From Siphonodentalium dalli (taxonomy: Eukaryota; Mollusca; Scaphopoda; Gadilida; Siphonodentaliidae), in the NCBI GenBank assembly GCA_032622095.1, contig CP136068.1, positions 152,359,151 to 152,423,150 on the forward strand: DNA of 64,000 nt, written 5' to 3'. The notes below the pieces were generated by a model. The model was given only the letters and a program-made list of their open reading frames with translations, ran no database searches and was not told where the DNA came from. Made by a program: the position numbers and the translations under genes. Positions 5,929 to 62,615 of this stretch are shown here, in pieces (position 1 is the stretch's first letter; the number at the start of each line of letters is the position of its first letter).

Positions 5929-5941
5929 AGGAAGTAGAGTC

Positions 5942-6386
5942 CAAGCCTGCAAAAAGTGTGTCTGTCATTTGCAGAATGAGGTCCCAAGAGGGTGAATTTA
6001 GTGATGCTATCCCGCTCAGCAGCCTAGCATCACCAAATTCACCCTCTGGGGACCTAATTATGCTTGGGCCTCATCTTATGGGAAGTATCTATTGTCTCAA
6101 ATTAACATTGTTTTCGGTTAATTTTTCCCTTCTCTTCAGTTTCTAGATCCACTAATTTGCAGAAGATAAAAAGCATAATCGAGGTGAATTATGGGTAAAC
6201 ATCACCAACTTCAACTGGGGAACTTTAATATGATTGTAGGTCTCTCATAGCAGTTGAGGCCTAAGCAGAATGAGGTTCCCAGAGAGTGAATTTGGTGATG
6301 CTAGCCCACCGTGCGGGATAGCGTCACTAAATTCACCCTTTGGGGACATCATTCTGCAGGTGATAGACACACAATTTTCAGCCTTG
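5942..6386. mobile_element. Family B element, long form
   Basis: The left end is CAAGCCTGC and the right end is CAGCCTTG. Each end carries the family palindrome around GAATGAGGTCCC and GGTGAATTTAGTGATGC. The interior (TTCAGTTTCTAGATCC, GCATAATCGAGGTGA, CAACTTCAACTGGGGAACTT) is shared with long copies at 38681 and 52871. No open frame is conserved. Confidence 0.8.
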
Positions 6387-6396
6387 GAGAGGTAAG

Positions 6397-6547
6397 CAAG
6401 CCTTGGAATAGTGTGTCTGTCATTTGCATAATGAGGTTCCCAGAGGGTGAATTTGGTGATGCTAGCCCACTATGCGGGGTAGCATCACTAAATTCACCCT
6501 CTGGGAACCTCATTCTGCAAATGACAGACACACTATTTCAAGGCTTG
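6397..6547. mobile_element. Family B short palindromic copy, 8-bp TSD
   Basis: A 151-bp near-perfect palindrome from CAAGCCTTGGAATAG to CTATTTCAAGGCTTG. The flanks are GAGGTAAG on the left and GAGATAAG on the right, matching 7 of 8, as expected for an 8-bp target duplication. It sits directly beside the B element ending at 6386. Confidence 0.88.
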
Positions 6548-6606
6548 GAGATAAGTATCCCCGTAGCTGCTCCAGTCCATCATCCCTGTTCACGGTTTGT
6601 TTACCA

Positions 6607-9344: not shown

Positions 9345-9673
9345 AAACCTGAGTTTAGAGTGCCTGTCATTTACAGAATGAGGTCCCAAGAGGGTGAATT
9401 TAGTGACGCTATCCCGCATAGCGGGGTAGCATCACTAAATTAACCCTCTGGGGACCTCATTCTGCTTAGGCTTCATCTTCTCTGGAAAGTTTCTATATTA
9501 TCAAATTTCTATAGAACCTTCTTCACATAGATTCTACTTCTTTTTTAGTTTAGTTTCTCTGTATCCCCAAATTGGCAGATGACACATTGCATAATCGAGG
9601 TTTCCAATGGGTGCACATCTCAATATTCACCATTTGGGAACTTCAATCTGAGTATATCTACCATAGCAGATGA
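9345..9673. mobile_element. Family B element, right end missing
   Basis: A degraded left end (CAAACCTGAG) is followed by the B palindrome around CCCGCATAGCGGGG and the long-form interior (GCATAATCGAGGTTTCC, GGGAACTTCAATCTGA). The second palindrome is absent. Confidence 0.75.
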
Positions 9674-10160: not shown

Positions 10161-10311
10161 CAAGCGTTGAAATAGGGTGTCTGTCATTTGCAGAATGAGG
10201 TCCCCAGAGGGTGAATTTAGTGATGCTACCCTGCATAGCGGGGTAGCATCACTAAATTCACCCTCTGGGGACCTCGTTCTGCAAATGACAGACGCCCTAT
10301 TTCAAGGCTTG
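10161..10311. mobile_element. Family B short copy with perfect 8-bp TSD
   Basis: A 151-bp palindrome from CAAGCGTTGAAATAGGG to CCCTATTTCAAGGCTTG. Flanks are identical 8-mers, AATATAGC at 10153-10160 and 10312-10319. This is the clearest evidence that family B makes 8-bp target duplications. Confidence 0.95.
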
Positions 10312-10349
10312 AATATAGCCTTTTTCTTTGGTAAAGTTACATTCTTTAA

Positions 10350-10730
10350 CCCTTTACCCAACAGAACGGCCCTGTGCCAATGCATTCTCTTATATATACG
10401 AGTCGACCATAGGTCGCCTCGTATATAAAAGAGAATGCATTGGCTTAACACATTAAAAATTATAAAATTGTTAAAGAATGTAAGAAAAAATGGTAAAAAG
10501 TGTTAATTTTTTTTTTTTTTTGGCCAATGCATTCTCTTATATATGCGAGGCGACCTATGGTCGACTCGCATATATAAGAGAATGCATTGGCACAGGGCAT
10601 AACTGTAACTATCACAATGTGGTCAAGGAGCCGGTTCCAATGATATCCATATTTGTATGGTTCTAGTGAGACAGACCGAAGATATTTTAGGCTGTTGAAG
10701 CTTTATTTGGCCGGTTTGTTGGGTAAAGGG
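10350..10730 (+). mobile_element. Family C twin-hairpin element
   Basis: Ends are CCCTTTACCCAACA and TGTTGGGTAAAGGG, flanked by TTAA (10346 and 10731). Inside are two roughly 69-bp hairpins in opposite orientation built on GCCAATGCATTCTCTTATAT, then an asymmetric tail (CAAGGAGCCGGTTCCAATGA). TTAA plus a CCCTTT end is piggyBac-like; no transposase is present. Confidence 0.92.
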
Positions 10731-10734
10731 TTAA

Positions 10735-11476
10735 AGGCCCACTTAATTTTCGAATCACCAGATCATATTATATACCATTTGAAAGAGGAAGCTCCAAAAC
10801 ATTGTATTATCAACTGATTCGGTCAAATGAATTGGGAACATTTTGTCAAGGTACCGGGGTGTGTTCTGTGCTTAATTTTGATCCGGACTGTACTATACAG
10901 TCTATTATTCTCAATGGAAGGGGAATAACTCTATCTCTTAGTTTGAATTCTGATGCATTCTGGGTTGAAAATGGGGGATGTCTTGGAATTTATCTGAGGA
11001 TCTCTATCACTTGGTGGACACTCTTGGCCACATCTGTTCCATATTCGGTACAATATATATATTTTTGGTTCCTCTTCCAAATGGTATATAAGATGGAATA
11101 TGTTTTATCACATAATTTGGCCATAAAAGCAGTTTCATAATTATCGGTAATAGACACGTTTAATATCAGCGCGTGCGATGACGTCACAGCGTTCTTCAAA
11201 TAACTTGCGATCGCTGTAGTTTATGATTGTTGTTTTTGATGAATATTTCGCGTTGCTTCGGGTTTATTTGATCATGTGATAAAAGGTATCTCACACTCGT
11301 CCTATTTTATACGTAATTTATCAACCTCGTCCTCTAAATTCTATTTGAGCCTCGGTAAACCTCGGCTCAAATCGAATTTAGTGAACTCGGTTGATAAATT
11401 CCGTATAAAATAGAAACTCATGTGAGATCCTCTATGTATATAATATTATCGGGGCATTTGAAAATTAAGTGGGCCT
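10735..11476. mobile_element. Family G, TTAA-flanked element
   Basis: A 742-bp element with inverted ends AGGCCCACTTAATTTTC and GAAAATTAAGTGGGCCT. The left TTAA (10731-10734) is shared with the C element ending at 10730; the right TTAA is 11477-11480. There are two internal hairpins (10745-10805 with 11047-11105, and 11285-11437). A 112-codon open frame at 10802-11140 lies across a hairpin arm and is not credible as a gene. Confidence 0.87.
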
Positions 11477-11480
11477 TTAA

Positions 11481-17288: not shown

Positions 17289-17674
17289 CCCTTTACCCAA
17301 CAGAACGGTCCTGTGCCAATGCATTCTCTTATATATGCGAGTCGACCATAGGTCGCCTCGCATATATAAGAGAATACATTGGCTTAACACATTAAAAATT
17401 ATAAAAATGGTAAAAAGTGTTAAAAAAAATTGTAAAAAATAATAACAAATGATGAAAAATTGTTAGGCCAATGCATTCTTTTATATATGCGAGGCGACCT
17501 ATGGTCGACTCGCATATATAAGAGAATGCTTTGGCACAGGGCATAACTGTAACTATCACAATGTGGTCAAGGAGCCGGTTCCAATGATATCCATATGTGT
17601 ATGGTTCTATTGAGACAGACCGAAGATATTTTAGGCTGTTGAAGCTTTATTTGGCCGGTTTGTTGGGTAAAGGG
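17289..17674 (+). mobile_element. Family C twin-hairpin element
   Basis: TTAA flanks at 17285 and 17675 with standard C ends. The spacer between the hairpins is a variant (AACAAATGATGAAAAATTGT) that reappears in inverse in the J element at 56311. Confidence 0.92.
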
Positions 17675-20284: not shown

Positions 20285-20762
20285 AGAAATTCATTAAGAT
20301 GGAGTGGAGATTCCTGAAAATGGGGGTGGAGATTCCTGACGATGGGGGTGGAGATTCCTGAAGATGGGGTGGAGATTCCTGAAGATGGGGTGGAGATTCC
20401 TGAAGATGGGGTGGATATTCCTGAAGATGGGGTGGAGATTCCTGAAGATGGGGGGTGGATATTCCTGAGGATGGGGTGGAGATTCCTGAGGATGGGGTGG
20501 TGATTCCTGAGGATGGGGTGGAGATTCCTGAGGATGGGGGTGGAGATTCCTGAGGATGGGGGTGGAGATTCCTGAAGATGGGGGTGGAGATTCCTGAAGA
20601 TGGGGTGGAGATTTCTGAAGATGGGGTGGAGATTCCTGAAGATGGGGGTGGAGATTCCTGAAGATGGGGGTGGAGATTCCTGAAGATGGGGTGGAGATTC
20701 CTGAAGATGGGGGTGGAGATTCCTGAGGATGGGGGTGGAGATTCCTGAGGATGGGGTGGAGT
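20285..20762 (-). repeat. 21/22-bp minisatellite, about 22 units
   Basis: Unit GAGATTCCTGAAGATGGGGTG, with the G run varying from four to six, giving 21-, 22- and 23-bp units and A/G variants at one site. The minus strand stays open through the array because the unit lacks stops, giving a proline/histidine-rich frame. Mixed unit lengths shift the frame repeatedly, which argues against protein selection. Confidence 0.93.
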
Positions 20763-21935: not shown

Positions 21936-22327
21936 CCCTTTACCCAACAGAAGGGCCCTGTGCCAATGCATTCTCTTATATATGCGAGTCGACCATAGGT
22001 CGCCTCGCATATATAAGAGAATGCATTGGCTTAACACATTAAAAATTATAAAATTGTTAAAGAATGTAAGAAAAAATGGTGAAAAGTGTTAAAAAAAGAT
22101 TTTTTTTAGGCCAATGCATTCTCTTATATATGCGAGGCGACATATGGTCGACTCGCATATATAAGAGAATGCATTGGCACAGGGCATAACTGTAACTATC
22201 ACAATGTGGTCAAGGAGCCGGTTCCAATGATATCCATATTTGTATGGTTCTATTGAGACAGACCGAAGATATTTTAGGCTGTTGAAGCTTTATTTGGCCG
22301 GTTTTGGCCGGTTTGTTGGGTAAAGGG
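21936..22327 (+). mobile_element. Family C twin-hairpin element
   Basis: Complete: TTAA at 21932 and 22328, both hairpins, and the tail with a doubled GGCCGGTTTTGGCCGGTTTG before the terminus. Confidence 0.93.
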
Positions 22328-35440: not shown

Positions 35441-35809
35441 CCCTTTACCCAACAAACCGGCCAAAACCGGCCAAATAAAGCTTCAACAGCCTAAAATATC
35501 TTCGGTCTGTCTCAATAGAACCATACAAATATGGATATCATTGGAACCGGCTCCTTGACCACATTGTGATAGTTACAGTTATGCCCTGTGCCAATGCATT
35601 CTCTTATATATGCGAGTCGACCATAGGTCGCCTCGCATATATAAGAGAATGCATTGGCCTTTTTACCATTTTTTCTTACATTCTTTAACAATTTTATAAT
35701 TTTTAATGTGTTAAGCCAATGCATTCTCTTATATATGCGAGGCGACCTATGGTCGACTCGCATATATAAGAGAATGCATTGGCACAGGGCCGTTCTGTTG
35801 GGTAAAGGG
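35441..35809 (-). mobile_element. Family C twin-hairpin element, inverse
   Basis: TTAA at 35437 and 35810. The asymmetric GGCCAAAACCGGCC end comes first, so it is inverted relative to the copy at 10350. Both hairpins are intact. Confidence 0.93.
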
Positions 35810-42481: not shown

Positions 42482-42734
42482 CTCTTTCATGACTGGAGCT
42501 GCGCTAATGCAGCTTAAAAAACCCTGTGCCAGTGCATTCCCTTATATGCGAGTCTCCCATAGGGAGTCTCGCATATATTAGAGAATGCACTGGCTTACAA
42601 GGTCAAGGTAAATATTGTTAGGCCAATCTATTCTCTTCTATATGTGATGCTCCCTATGGGAGACTCGCATATACAAAAGAAGGCATTGGTGCAGGGTTTT
42701 CACAAAATTTCAAGAAGCTCAAGTCATGGATGGG
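42482..42734 (+). mobile_element. Family D element
   Basis: TTAA at 42478, left end CTCTTTCATGACTGGAGCTG, both hairpins with shortened arms. The right end is degraded (CATGGATGGGTAGG). Confidence 0.83.
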
Positions 42735-47144: not shown

Positions 47145-47526
47145 CCCTTTACCCAACAAACCGGTCAAAAACGCCCAAATAAAGCTTCAACAGCCTAAAT
47201 TATCTTGGGTCTGTCTCAATAAAACCATACAAATATGGATATCATTGGAACCGGCTCATTGACCACATTGTGATGGTTACAGTTATGCCCTGTGCCAATG
47301 CATTCTCTTATATATGCGAGTCGACCATAGGTCGCCTCGCATATATAAAAGAATGCATTGGCCTAAAAAAAATCTTTTTTTACCATTTTTTCTTACATTC
47401 TTTAACAATTTTATAATTTTTAATGTGTTAAGCCAATGCATTCTCTTATATATGCGAGGCGACCTATGGTCGACTCGCATATATAAGAGAATGCATTGGC
47501 ACAGGGCCGTTCTGTTGGGTGAAGGG
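47145..47526 (-). mobile_element. Family C element, inverse
   Basis: TTAA at 47141 and 47527. Other units of the array run CTCTTCTAAACTAATAGG or CATCAAAACTAATAAG with no insertion, so a single TTAA was duplicated. Both hairpins are intact. Confidence 0.95.
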
Positions 47527-48755: not shown

Positions 48756-49096
48756 CCCTTTACCCAACAAACCGGCCAAAACCGGCCAAATAAAGCTTCA
48801 ACAGCCTAAAATACAAATATGGATATCATTGGAACCGGTTCATTGACCACATTGTGATGGTTATAGTTATGCCCTGTGCCAATGCATTCTCTTATATATG
48901 CGAGTCGACCATATATAAGAGAATGCATTGGCCTAAAAAAAATCTTTTTTTACCATTTTTTCTTACATTCTTTAACAATTTTATAATTTTTAATGTGTTA
49001 AGCCAATGCATTCTCTTATATATGCGAGGCGACCTATGGTCGACTCGCATATATAAGAGAATGCATTGGCACAGGGCCGTTCTGTTGGGTAAAGGG
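48756..49096 (-). mobile_element. Family C element, inverse, one hairpin shortened
   Basis: TTAA at 48752 and 49097. The paralogous unit reads TTTTCCTTTAACTTGACTG (49708-49726) with a single TTAA. The first hairpin has lost its second apex arm (GCGAGTCGACCATATATAAG). Confidence 0.95.
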
Positions 49097-53315: not shown

Positions 53316-54219
53316 TCGAGGTAGATCATGCCATGAATCTCTACTCTCGCTAACGCCCGTAGAGATCATATTCCACCAGTACAAAACCTTGGAACTTTTT
53401 TAAGTTTTGACAGGGAACCTTATAAAATCGAAACAACAATGCGGGGAATATATTTCTTAGTTATTATCTGTTCCTTAATAGTGTACTTCACTGTATGTGA
53501 AAGTCCCAACTCGAAACTGTATGCTTTTCTGTGACTTTTAACCCTTTACCCAACAAACCGGCCAAAACCGGCCAAATAAAGCTGCAACAGCCTAAATTAT
53601 CTTGGGTCTGTCTCAATAAAACCATACAAATATGGATATCATTGGAACCGGCTCCTTGACCACATTGTGATAGTTACAGTTATGCCCTGTGCCAATGCAT
53701 TCTCTTATATATGCGAGTCGACCATAGGTCGCCTCGCATATATAAGAGAATGCATTGGCCTAAAAAAAATCTTTTTTTACCATTTTTTCTTACATTCTTT
53801 AACAATTTTATAATTTTTAATGTGTTAAGCCAATGCATTCTCTTATATATGCGAGGCGACCTATGTTCGACTCGCATATATAAGAGAATGCATTGGCACA
53901 GGGCCCTTTTGTTGGGTAAAGGGTTAAAAGCCGATATCGCAATAAACATTCAATTAATTACCCCAAAAAAAATCCATAATTGTAAGAAACGCAAAGAAAA
54001 ATCGGTCATAACGTCACTTAAATCGTGAAATTTCTAGTTGGGATCTTCGCCCACAGTGAAGTACATTATTAAGAAACAGATAATAACAAAGAAATATATT
54101 GCCCGCGTTGTTTTGATTTTATAAGGTTCCCTGTCAAAACTTCAAAAAGTTCCAAGGTGGAATATGATCTCTACGGGCGTTAGCCAGAGTAGAGATTCAT
54201 GGCATGATTTACAGTCGAG
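53316..54219. mobile_element. Family M large foldback with C in its loop
   Basis: The left arm (53316-53512) and right arm (about 54030-54219) are inverse copies: CATGCCATGAATCTCTACTC, AACGCCCGTAGAGATCATAT, CAACAATGCGGG or CAACGCGGG, TATTATCTGTT and GTACTTCACTGT all recur in inverse. The loop holds a complete C element and about 100 bp of single-copy sequence that reappears at 63580-63700. No clear target duplication was found. Confidence 0.8.
53542..53923 (-). mobile_element. Family C element, inverse
   Basis: TTAA at 53538 and 53924; two intact hairpins. It is nearly identical in layout to 47145, including the AAAAAAAATCTTTTTTTACC spacer. Confidence 0.93.
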
Positions 54220-56310: not shown

Positions 56311-56642
56311 CCCTTTGAGTGCCAGGTCCGATTTTGTATCAACCCATATACCCTGTGCCAATGCATTCTCTTATATATGCGAGTCGACCATAGGTCGCCT
56401 CGCATATATAAGAGAATGCATTGGCCTAACAATTTTTCATCATTTATTATTATTTTTTTCAATTTTTTACAATTTTAATAATTTTTTCTTATATTCTTTA
56501 ACAGACTTATTTTGTAGGTTTAGTGCCAGGGAATCTTACGTTTTTCATGGCCATCAAAATTATTACTATTTAAATTTTTTTAGGGCTGATTTTACAGAGC
56601 GTAAATTAGGGCCGATGAGATCGGGCCCTGGCACCGAAAGGG
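56311..56642. mobile_element. Element J: TTAA ends of its own, family C hairpin inside
   Basis: TTAA at 56307 and 56643. The ends CCCTTTGAGTGCCAGG and CCTGGCACCGAAAGGG differ from those of C. Inside lie one complete C-type hairpin, starting CCCTGTGCCAATGCATTC, and the inverse of the C spacer variant seen at 17289 (ACAATTTTTCATCATTTATT). The second half carries sequence not seen elsewhere (ATTTTACAGAGCGTAAATT). Confidence 0.88.
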
Positions 56643-56722: not shown

Positions 56723-57115
56723 CCCTTTACCCAACAGAACGGCCCTGTGCCAATGCATTCTCTTATATATGCGAGTCGACCATAGGTCGCCTCGCATATA
56801 TAAGAGAATGCATTGGCTTAACACATTAAAAATTATAAAATTGTTAAAGAATGTAAGAAAAAATGGTAAAAAGTGTTAAAAAAAGACTTTTTTTTAGGCC
56901 AATGCATTCTCTTATATATGCGATGCGACCTATGGTCGACTCGCATATATAAGAGAATGCATTGGCACAGGGCATAAATGTAACCATCACAATGTGGTCA
57001 AGGAGCCGGTTCCAATGATATCCATATTTGTATGGTTCTATTGAGACAGACCGAAGATATTTTAGGCTGTTGAAGCTTTATTTGGCCGGTTTTGGCCGGT
57101 TTGTTGGGTAAAGGG
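56723..57115 (+). mobile_element. Family C twin-hairpin element
   Basis: TTAA at 56719 and 57116; complete. It lies only about 80 bp after the J element. Confidence 0.94.
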
Positions 57116-59262: not shown

Positions 59263-59515
59263 CAAGCCTGCAAATAGTGTCTGTCATTTGCAGAATGAGG
59301 TCCCCAGAGGGTGAATTTAGTGATGCTACCCCGCATAGCGGGCTAGCATCACCAAATTCACCCTCTGGGGACCTCATTCTGCTTACACCTCAGCAGAATG
59401 AGGTCCCCAGAGGGTGAATTTGGTGATGCTAGCCCGCTATGCGGGGGTAGCGTCACTAAATTCACCCTCTGAGGACCTCATTCTGCAAATGACAGACACG
59501 CTATTTGCAGGCCTG
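59263..59515. mobile_element. Family B double-palindrome copy with perfect 8-bp TSD
   Basis: Ends CAAGCCTGCAAATAG and CTATTTGCAGGCCTG. The flanks ATCTCAGT at 59255-59262 and 59516-59523 are identical. Two palindromes are joined by CTGCTTACACCTCAGCAGAA. Confidence 0.95.
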
Positions 59516-61959: not shown

Positions 61960-62219
61960 ACCTTTCATTACGGGAGCCATGCTGGTGCAGCATTAAAGAT
62001 CATGTGCCAGGTATTCTCTTATATATGCGACTCTCCCATAGGGGACCTCGCATATATAAGGGAATGCACTGGTTTACAAGATCAAGGAAAATATTGTTAG
62101 GCCTATGTATTCTCCTTTATATACGAGGCTCCCTATGGGAGACTAACATATATAAGAGAAATTCAGAATGCATTGGCAGATTTTTCATAAAATTTCAGAA
62201 AGCTCCAGTCATGGAAGGG
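61960..62219 (+). mobile_element. Family D element abutting family C
   Basis: TTAA at 61956; left end ACCTTTCATTACGGGAGCC; two hairpins, somewhat eroded; right end AGCTCCAGTCATGGAAGGG. The right TTAA (62220-62223) is also the left TTAA of the next element. Confidence 0.88.
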
Positions 62220-62223
62220 TTAA

Positions 62224-62615
62224 CCCTTTACCCAACAGAAAGGCCCTGTGCCAATGCATTCTCTTATATATGCGAGTCGACCATAGGTCGCCTCGCATAT
62301 ATAAGAGAATGCATTGGCTTAACACATTAAAAATTATAAAATTGTTAAAGAATGTAAGAAAAAATGGTAAAAAGTGTTAAAAAAAGATTTTTTTTAAGCC
62401 AATGCATTCTCTTATATATGCGAGGCGACCTATGGTCGACTCGCATATATAAGAGAATGCATTGGCACAGGGCATAACTGTAACTATCACAATGTGGTCA
62501 AGGAGCCGATTCCAATGATATCCATATTTGTATGGTTCTATTGAGACAGACCGAAGATATTTTAGGCTGTTGAAGCTTTATTTGGCCGGTTTTGGCCGGT
62601 TTGTTGGGTAAAGGG
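62224..62615 (+). mobile_element. Family C twin-hairpin element
   Basis: Complete, TTAA at 62220 (shared with the D element) and 62616. The asymmetric tail has the GGCCGGTTTTGGCCGGTTTG doubling. Confidence 0.94.

Follow-up and report, generated by a model that had tools for sequence, protein, structure and literature searches.

The window, by which we mean the whole stretch of 64,000 nucleotides analyzed, contains at positions 10350-10730 one complete 381-bp non-autonomous transposon lying between TTAA sites, referred to here as element C (Table 1). Its left end, CCCTTTACCCAACAGAACGG, begins directly after the TTAA at 10346-10349 and its right end, ...TGTTGGGTAAAGGG, stops directly before the TTAA at 10731-10734; the ends are inverted and start with CCC (CCCTTTACCC.../...GGGTAAAGGG). 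No open reading frame of at least 110 aa overlaps 10350-10730. All nine family C copies in the window are flanked by TTAA on both sides, and among the 52 C copies that we collected this holds for 43, the remaining nine differing or being cut off on at least one side. A search of the window with the seed TGCATTCTCTTATATA, allowing up to three mismatches, gave 72 matches where 1.77 were expected.

Table 1. Coordinates of element C, its parts, and the further C, D, and J copies in the window.
Feature	Position	Strand	Remark
Left TTAA target-site duplication	10346..10349		flanks element C
Left terminal inverted repeat, CCCTTTACCCAACAG...	10350..10371	+	22 bp, 91% match to right end
Twin-hairpin core, probably captured, ends CCCTGTG ... 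CACAGGG	10370..10597	+	same borders in C, J, K, and stand-alone copies
Hairpin 1, 67 bp	10377..10443	+	outer-arm T 10403 opposite inner-arm C 10417, fixed mismatch
Hairpin 2, 67 bp	10524..10590	-	reverse complement of hairpin 1 except for a few changes
C-specific right segment	10598..10708	+	absent beside the core in the D, J, and K copies read
Right terminal inverted repeat, ...TGTTGGGTAAAGGG	10709..10730	-	pairs with left end
Right TTAA target-site duplication	10731..10734		flanks element C
Family C copy	17289..17674	+	further window copy
Family C copy	21936..22327	+	further window copy
Family C copy	35441..35809	-	further window copy
Family C copy	47145..47526	-	further window copy
Family C copy	48756..49096	-	14-base deletion in one hairpin
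Family C copy	53542..53923	-	further window copy
Family C copy	56723..57115	+	further window copy
Family C copy	62224..62615	+	adjoins D copy at common TTAA
Family D copy (CTCTTTCATGAC ... GTCATGGATGGG)	42482..42734	+	right TTAA altered
Family D copy	61960..62219	+	further window copy
Partial family J copy (TTAA CCCTTTGAGTGCC end)	56311..56520	+	one hairpin; right border not defined

The preliminary description of this DNA had reported two long hairpins in opposite orientation in both C and D, and two such hairpins, each 67 bp long, are indeed present, in C at the positions given in Table 1. They sit in 105-nt arms that are 86% complementary, and since the two hairpins are mutual reverse complements, the unit is a palindrome of palindromes. 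Folded as single-stranded DNA, the 381 bases reach -116.3 kcal/mol, compared with -35.8 +/- 4.0 for 100 shuffles, and the best fold is not a pair of hairpins but a single long stem in which hairpin 1 and hairpin 2 pair with each other.

Other repeats surround the element. Another inverted-repeat element (GGCCCACTTAATTTTC ... GAAAATTAAGTGGGCC) at 10735-11480 abuts element C directly, and a separate palindromic family (GAGGTCCCCAGAGGGTGAATTTAGTGATGCTACCC) has many copies in the window (10170-10311, 9357-9465, 5940-6550, and 59263-59515); at one locus elsewhere (L039), the core adjoins sequence of this family. A minisatellite with 21-22 bp units (ATTCCTGAAGATGGGGTGGAG) occupies 20289-20761. At 62220-62223, a single TTAA is common to a D copy and a C copy, C apparently having inserted into the target duplication that closes D.

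The stem sequences had been said to differ between C and D at the base and near the apex, and consensus sequences from 52 C copies and 44 D copies confirmed both differences. In C, both hairpins have CCAATG/CATTGG at the base and CGACC/GGTCG at the apex. In D, hairpin 1 has CCAGTG/CACTGG at the base and CTCCC/GGGAG at the apex, and hairpin 2 combines that same apex with the base CCAATG/CATTGG. The stems of C and D are not fully paired, however, since in C, D, J, and K (the last a fourth family, described below) a fixed T:C mismatch stands beside the apex, always with T in the outer arm and C in the inner arm. The element at 10350 carries one extra paired change in hairpin 1, at stem pair 22 (G-C to A-T); none of the other C copies, 52 in all with this one, has a complementary double. 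At one locus (L005), a D-like right end occurs together with a C-type apex, and the stem base has an A:C mismatch, so that this hairpin is intermediate between those of C and D.

To count the hairpin in the genome, we used a degenerate apex pattern of 17 fixed letters in which two pairs and the mismatch were left free. Across the 2.23-Gb genome it has 134,684 occurrences, compared with 0 for the reversed control, and the exact C-type apex is found in 94 of the first 100 places listed. We read 60 loci around apexes in the first 6 Mb of contig 1 and 19 from elsewhere on contig 1. Some core-bearing copies on contig 1 repeat at distances of roughly 11.2 kb, 14.6 kb, and 7.9 kb, a pattern that resembles tandem arrays (C1:837465-915862, C1:742236-771522, and C1:94237250-94292477). 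Five pairs of loci carry the same elements in opposite orientation (L020/L045, L036/L048, L042/L044, L038/L047, and L039/L046). The paired loci come from C1 1.79-2.08 Mb and 3.35-3.59 Mb, an arrangement resembling a large inverted duplication.

The loci read show the hairpins to be part of a separable core. Its ends are constant (CCCTGTG...CACAGGG), and homology among C, J, K, and stand-alone copies begins and stops there. The module had been described as homologous in C, D, and J; this was upheld. Family J is TTAA-flanked and carries the C-type hairpin once only. Family D has ends unlike those of C and TTAA on both sides in 24 of 44 copies. Family K is a fourth host, which also bears the C-type hairpin; its ends, GTGACCCGCCATATCAAATCC, are unrelated to those of the other hosts, and 4-bp AT-rich repeats (e.g. 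ATAT, ATTT) flank five of the six independent copies with both ends. The core was also found without any host. In a set of 112 hairpins, the consensus was identical in the C-left, C-right, J, K, and remaining classes.

The sequence flanking the core differs between hosts. The loci read contain 74 two-hairpin cores: 19 in K, 3 stand-alone, and 52 classed as C, one of which is really a stand-alone copy (L049). TA stands on both sides of 17 of the 19 K cores, a count that includes three loci duplicating others (L044, L045, and L048), and the other two K cores lack the left TA. It also stands on both sides of all three stand-alone cores (L067, L151, and L180), and on both sides of none of the 52 cores classed as C. 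L049 has TA on its right side and a changed left end, J has TA to the left of the core, and the D core borders read AT and TT. The C and D cores lack flanking TA, and the putative route of capture into C and D is no longer visible.

In a search with the joined flanks of K, 40 of 775 candidates were scored, and a single one of these matched almost the full length of the query: L169, a K-like palindrome that has an AT-rich loop but lacks the core. The corresponding search with the joined C flanks gave no core-less C among 40 scored of 64 candidates, a number that does not by itself show absence; 39 of the 40 scored matches start at the join, and the remaining one (L189) reaches 8 bases beyond it and carries the core. 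We also considered the K interior as a relic of a D hairpin and dropped the idea, which is weakly supported, as 8 and 7 of 500 shuffles scored as high. The loci read thus show a single hairpin consensus across contexts, common borders, TA in K and at three stand-alone copies, and one core-less K-like copy, and the plain reading is that the core is a TA-target MITE captured by several other MITE families.

It is rather unlikely that C, D, and J are instead one family with diverged ends, not hosts that captured a common module. All three are TTAA-flanked with ends starting CCCTTT, and the missing TA at the C and D cores would fit such a descent, but K has the same core with other ends and other flanking repeats, and stand-alone cores exist. 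A transposase search gave 128 matches to PF13843, and many piggyBac-type transposases are present in the genome; none of the eight loci read among these matches has a C, D, or J end, and a TTAACCC end is visible at five of the eight. The transposase genes at L021-L028 have open frames of 521-671 aa and possibly belong to active families; five of these loci show ends such as TTAACCCCCGATTCCCG.

The preliminary description held that the two arms of each stem change together. This is correct for the comparison between families C and D; within families, the arms mutate independently, and covariation across aligned copies did not hold up, single-arm changes dominating and complementary doubles within D standing near the shuffled number. 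The 44 D copies contain 280 single-arm changes and 10 complementary doubles, compared with about 6 by shuffling, which is not significant. In D hairpin 1, there are 131 single-arm changes, 7 complementary doubles, and 3 other doubles (shuffled mean 4.06, with 7 or more in 176 of 2000 shuffles), and in D hairpin 2, there are 149, 3, and 10, respectively (shuffled mean 1.98, with 3 or more in 633 of 2000). We likewise discarded covariation of one D hairpin with the other along the long inverted repeat, where 6 complementary doubles were seen and shuffling gave 6.03. The C copies have 46 single-arm changes and one complementary double, that of the window element itself.

The 112 outer-flanked hairpins show 105 single-arm changes, 6 complementary doubles (shuffled mean 0.67), and 1 other double. 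Five of the six complementary doubles lie in two D-type window copies and are the C/D difference itself; the sixth is again the window element. From this set, 30 hairpins with identical upstream bases had been dropped, which also removes independent identical C-right, J, and K copies. The single-arm count of this set should not be taken as an unbiased rate, since the loci were picked either because the apex was intact (L001-L068, leaving out L021-L028, which are the transposase loci) or because it had a single change (L170-L188). At an apex G-C pair, the complementary A was present in 1 of the first 100 of 1459 copies in which the 3' partner had changed from C to T, and about 1.7% would be expected, as where the partner is unchanged. 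The first 100 listed apex-pattern places contain 6 single-arm variants and no doubles. In a second listing, the first 100 places, judged by eye against the nearer of the C- and D-type apexes, contain no complementary double and one non-complementary double. The arms are therefore independent in genomic copies, and the T:C mismatch kept in all four families shows that they are not routinely homogenized. The paired changes separating D from the other families amount to about two events.

Correction between arms had been offered as one source of the paired changes, and the fixed mismatch allowed us to measure it: copying of either arm onto its partner would turn the mismatch T into G or the mismatch C into A. 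The mismatch T is changed in 535 copies, of which the first 100 listed read G in 42, C in 36, and A in 22. A control paired T in the same GTCG context is changed in 359 copies, the first 100 of which read C in 64, A in 26, and G in 10. The T to G change is thus in excess at the mismatch (42/100 compared with 10/100; odds ratio 6.5, p = 3e-7), and no difference between mismatch and control was observed for T to A relative to T to C (p = 0.28). Here and for the mismatch C, each spectrum covers the 100 places listed first, which lie on the first contigs only, and not the whole count. Twenty T to G copies were fetched: flanks and orientation are normal in 15, 2 are unclassified on one side, and 3 are rearranged. 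The excess persists when the rearranged share is removed (p = 3.5e-6). Two of them (L142 and L143) resemble one subfamily; a single founder for all T to G copies is ruled out because they recur in C-left, C-right, J, and K contexts.

The mismatch C is changed in 1610 copies (first 100: T 52, A 36, G 12), and a control C, in an ACC rather than a GCC context, in 1376 (first 100: T 70, A 25, G 5). Eight of the 25 control A changes come from one tandem array, which when counted once leaves 18 of 93; the excess of C to A over C to T at the mismatch has p = 0.04, or p = 0.005 with the array counted once. The 20 C to A copies fetched comprise 5 collapsed cores of two outer arms, 2 flipped copies, 1 unclassified copy, and 12 others, one of which (L156) is followed immediately by a partial second hairpin; among the C to A copies, L162 and L163 form a recently duplicated pair. 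Without the rearranged copies, there are about 22 C to A (our own scaling by 12/20) to 52 T, and in the control 18 to 70 T, a difference that is not significant (p = 0.20).

With intact apexes taken as 94% of 134,684, the T to G excess corresponds to about 1.5 per 1000 hairpins, and the total change at the control T, 2.8 per 1000 hairpins, is above it. No D copy (0 of 44) has the mismatch restored in either hairpin. Correction of the T:C mismatch towards the other arm, demonstrated for T to G, thus affects about 1-2 of 1000 hairpins; the process proposed earlier takes place, as the T to G excess and inverted loops indicate, but is rare.

Larger rearrangements of the hairpins were also seen. 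Three of 40 fetched restored copies (L134, L154, and L161) have the loop reversed relative to the flanks, with matched arms, and none of 68 classified consensus hairpins does. Flanks are rearranged in 3 of 18 classified T to G copies, 7 of 19 classified C to A copies, and 0 of the 68 classified consensus hairpins, which include duplicated loci and are accompanied by 8 more that are unclassified. A three-hairpin core (L148) and a one-hairpin core (L167) indicate that hairpins are duplicated and lost. Hairpin collapse, duplication, and loop inversion therefore occur, as single copies demonstrate. Loop inversion with matched arms, as in L134, L154, and L161, is a possible result of template switching between inverted-repeat arms (PMC8604942, on spacer inversion), and in PMC8794818 compensatory changes in RNA hairpins are proposed to arise by template switching.

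Could arm-templated correction alone, by template switching or by repair of an extruded hairpin, explain the C/D covariation? The correction demonstrated at the fixed mismatch and the reversed loops with matched arms speak for it. Its rate, however, is below that of point change at the control T, complementary doubles within a type are lacking in the first 100 places of two apex listings, and the preserved mismatch is a single pair away from the apex pairs that changed, which would require a very short correction tract. Correction is too rare on its own for the C/D difference and, given also the adjacent mismatch, does not by itself explain why the C/D differences are mostly paired; we regard this explanation as doubtful.

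Selection on active elements would account for the mostly paired differences. Here, a hairpin needed for mobilization, as DNA or as transcript, would keep the stems of source elements paired, and the C/D changes would be compensatory. The consensus differences are mostly paired: in D hairpin 1, each of the three altered stem pairs has changed on both arms, and D hairpin 2 has 2 paired and 2 single-arm changes, one of the latter still polymorphic. This stands against the 10 complementary doubles and 280 single-arm changes within D copies. The consensus hairpin is identical across hosts with unrelated ends, though a recent capture would likewise give identical hairpins. In the nine window copies, the hairpin is also less diverged than the C right arm (10/1192 vs 18/891, p = 0.03); the same comparison in contig-1 copies is biased, the loci having been chosen by apex state. 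Against selection, there are about two independent events only, selection for pairing should have removed the T:C mismatch, the apex change takes two transversions per arm with no wobble intermediate, and no Rfam match reaches the gathering score. Selection on the hairpin structure is neither shown nor excluded, and as the explanation of the paired changes we hold it to be unlikely, if the strongest of the alternatives. That the hairpins are miRNA or siRNA precursors is very improbable. The stem is long and nearly perfect and the sub-threshold Rfam matches are mostly to miRNA families, but the best match has 82.4 bits against a gathering score of 200, and any long hairpin may score so. Between 10000 and 11600, Rfam gave 48 matches up to E 5, none at the gathering score, and an RNA family identity was dropped.

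We hypothesize instead, as the moderately probable explanation, that a hairpin-ended MITE was captured and burst-amplified in its hosts, that its arms mutate independently and are rarely corrected, and that the paired C/D changes were fixed in source elements. The module would make up the body of a small DNA transposon, non-autonomous and ending in CCCTGTGCCAATGC.../...GCATTGGCACAGGG; each of the two ends is itself a 67-bp imperfect palindrome. This transposon would insert at TA in T-run/A-run contexts, presumably on its own and by means of a transposase. It appears to have been captured inside at least four MITE families, C, D, and J with TTAA flanks and K with 4-bp AT-rich flanking repeats, by a putative route in the case of C and D, whose cores are without flanking TA, and bursts of the host MITEs would have multiplied the captured core. 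Polymerase template switching is the probable agent of correction. Hairpin turnover could bring a new apex to each of the four arms in a source element before amplification, and in this way the few paired C/D changes may have spread to both hairpins and become fixed in source elements; selection for pairing in these elements may have helped. Less likely than any of the readings of the C/D changes above, though not as remote as the small-RNA one, is a core that travels as a passenger transposon with its hairpin ends as the mobile signal, the oriented mismatch of C, D, J, and K being under selection because it marks the inner and outer arm for the transposase and the rest of the stem staying paired, and that enters TTAA and other transposon families as a parasite.

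Arm-onto-arm copying in palindromes has so far been studied mainly at single loci and in microbes. A mismatched palindrome with more than 100,000 genomic copies is a natural reporter for the rate of such copying. These results also caution against inferring a selected structure from covariation between repeat families, for which it is weak evidence, and they indicate how a single module can spread within host transposons whose ends are unrelated. No description of the twin-hairpin element was found in titles or abstract openings of open-licence papers.

Among known systems, piggyBac-type MITEs have a TTAA target and ends starting CCC, and TTAA is the target of Kolobok elements also. The families here resemble piggyBac-type MITEs in TTAA on both sides (C 43/52, D 24/44; J read with TTAA), in their CCCTTT ends, and in the lack of an open reading frame of at least 110 aa over 10350-10730; they differ in that none of the eight transposase loci read has a C, D, or J end. 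Tc1/mariner-like MITEs have a TA target, and the core is similarly TA-flanked in K and stand-alone copies, though not in C or D; unlike theirs, each core end is a 67-bp palindrome with a fixed mismatch. MER6, described in PMC6887750 as a composite MITE carrying a V-SINE domain, is alike in that a module of one mobile element was multiplied by the burst of another, whereas the passenger here is palindromic and in several host families at once. The closest parallel to the arm changes is quasipalindrome template-switch mutation as presented in PMC8604942 and PMC8794818, in which arms are made identical and the spacer is inverted; both signs were found here, as an excess of the T to G change that restores arm identity and as spacer inversion in L134, L154, and L161. 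Those systems are yeast or RNA genes, whereas here a single mismatched palindrome is present in more than 10^5 genomic copies.
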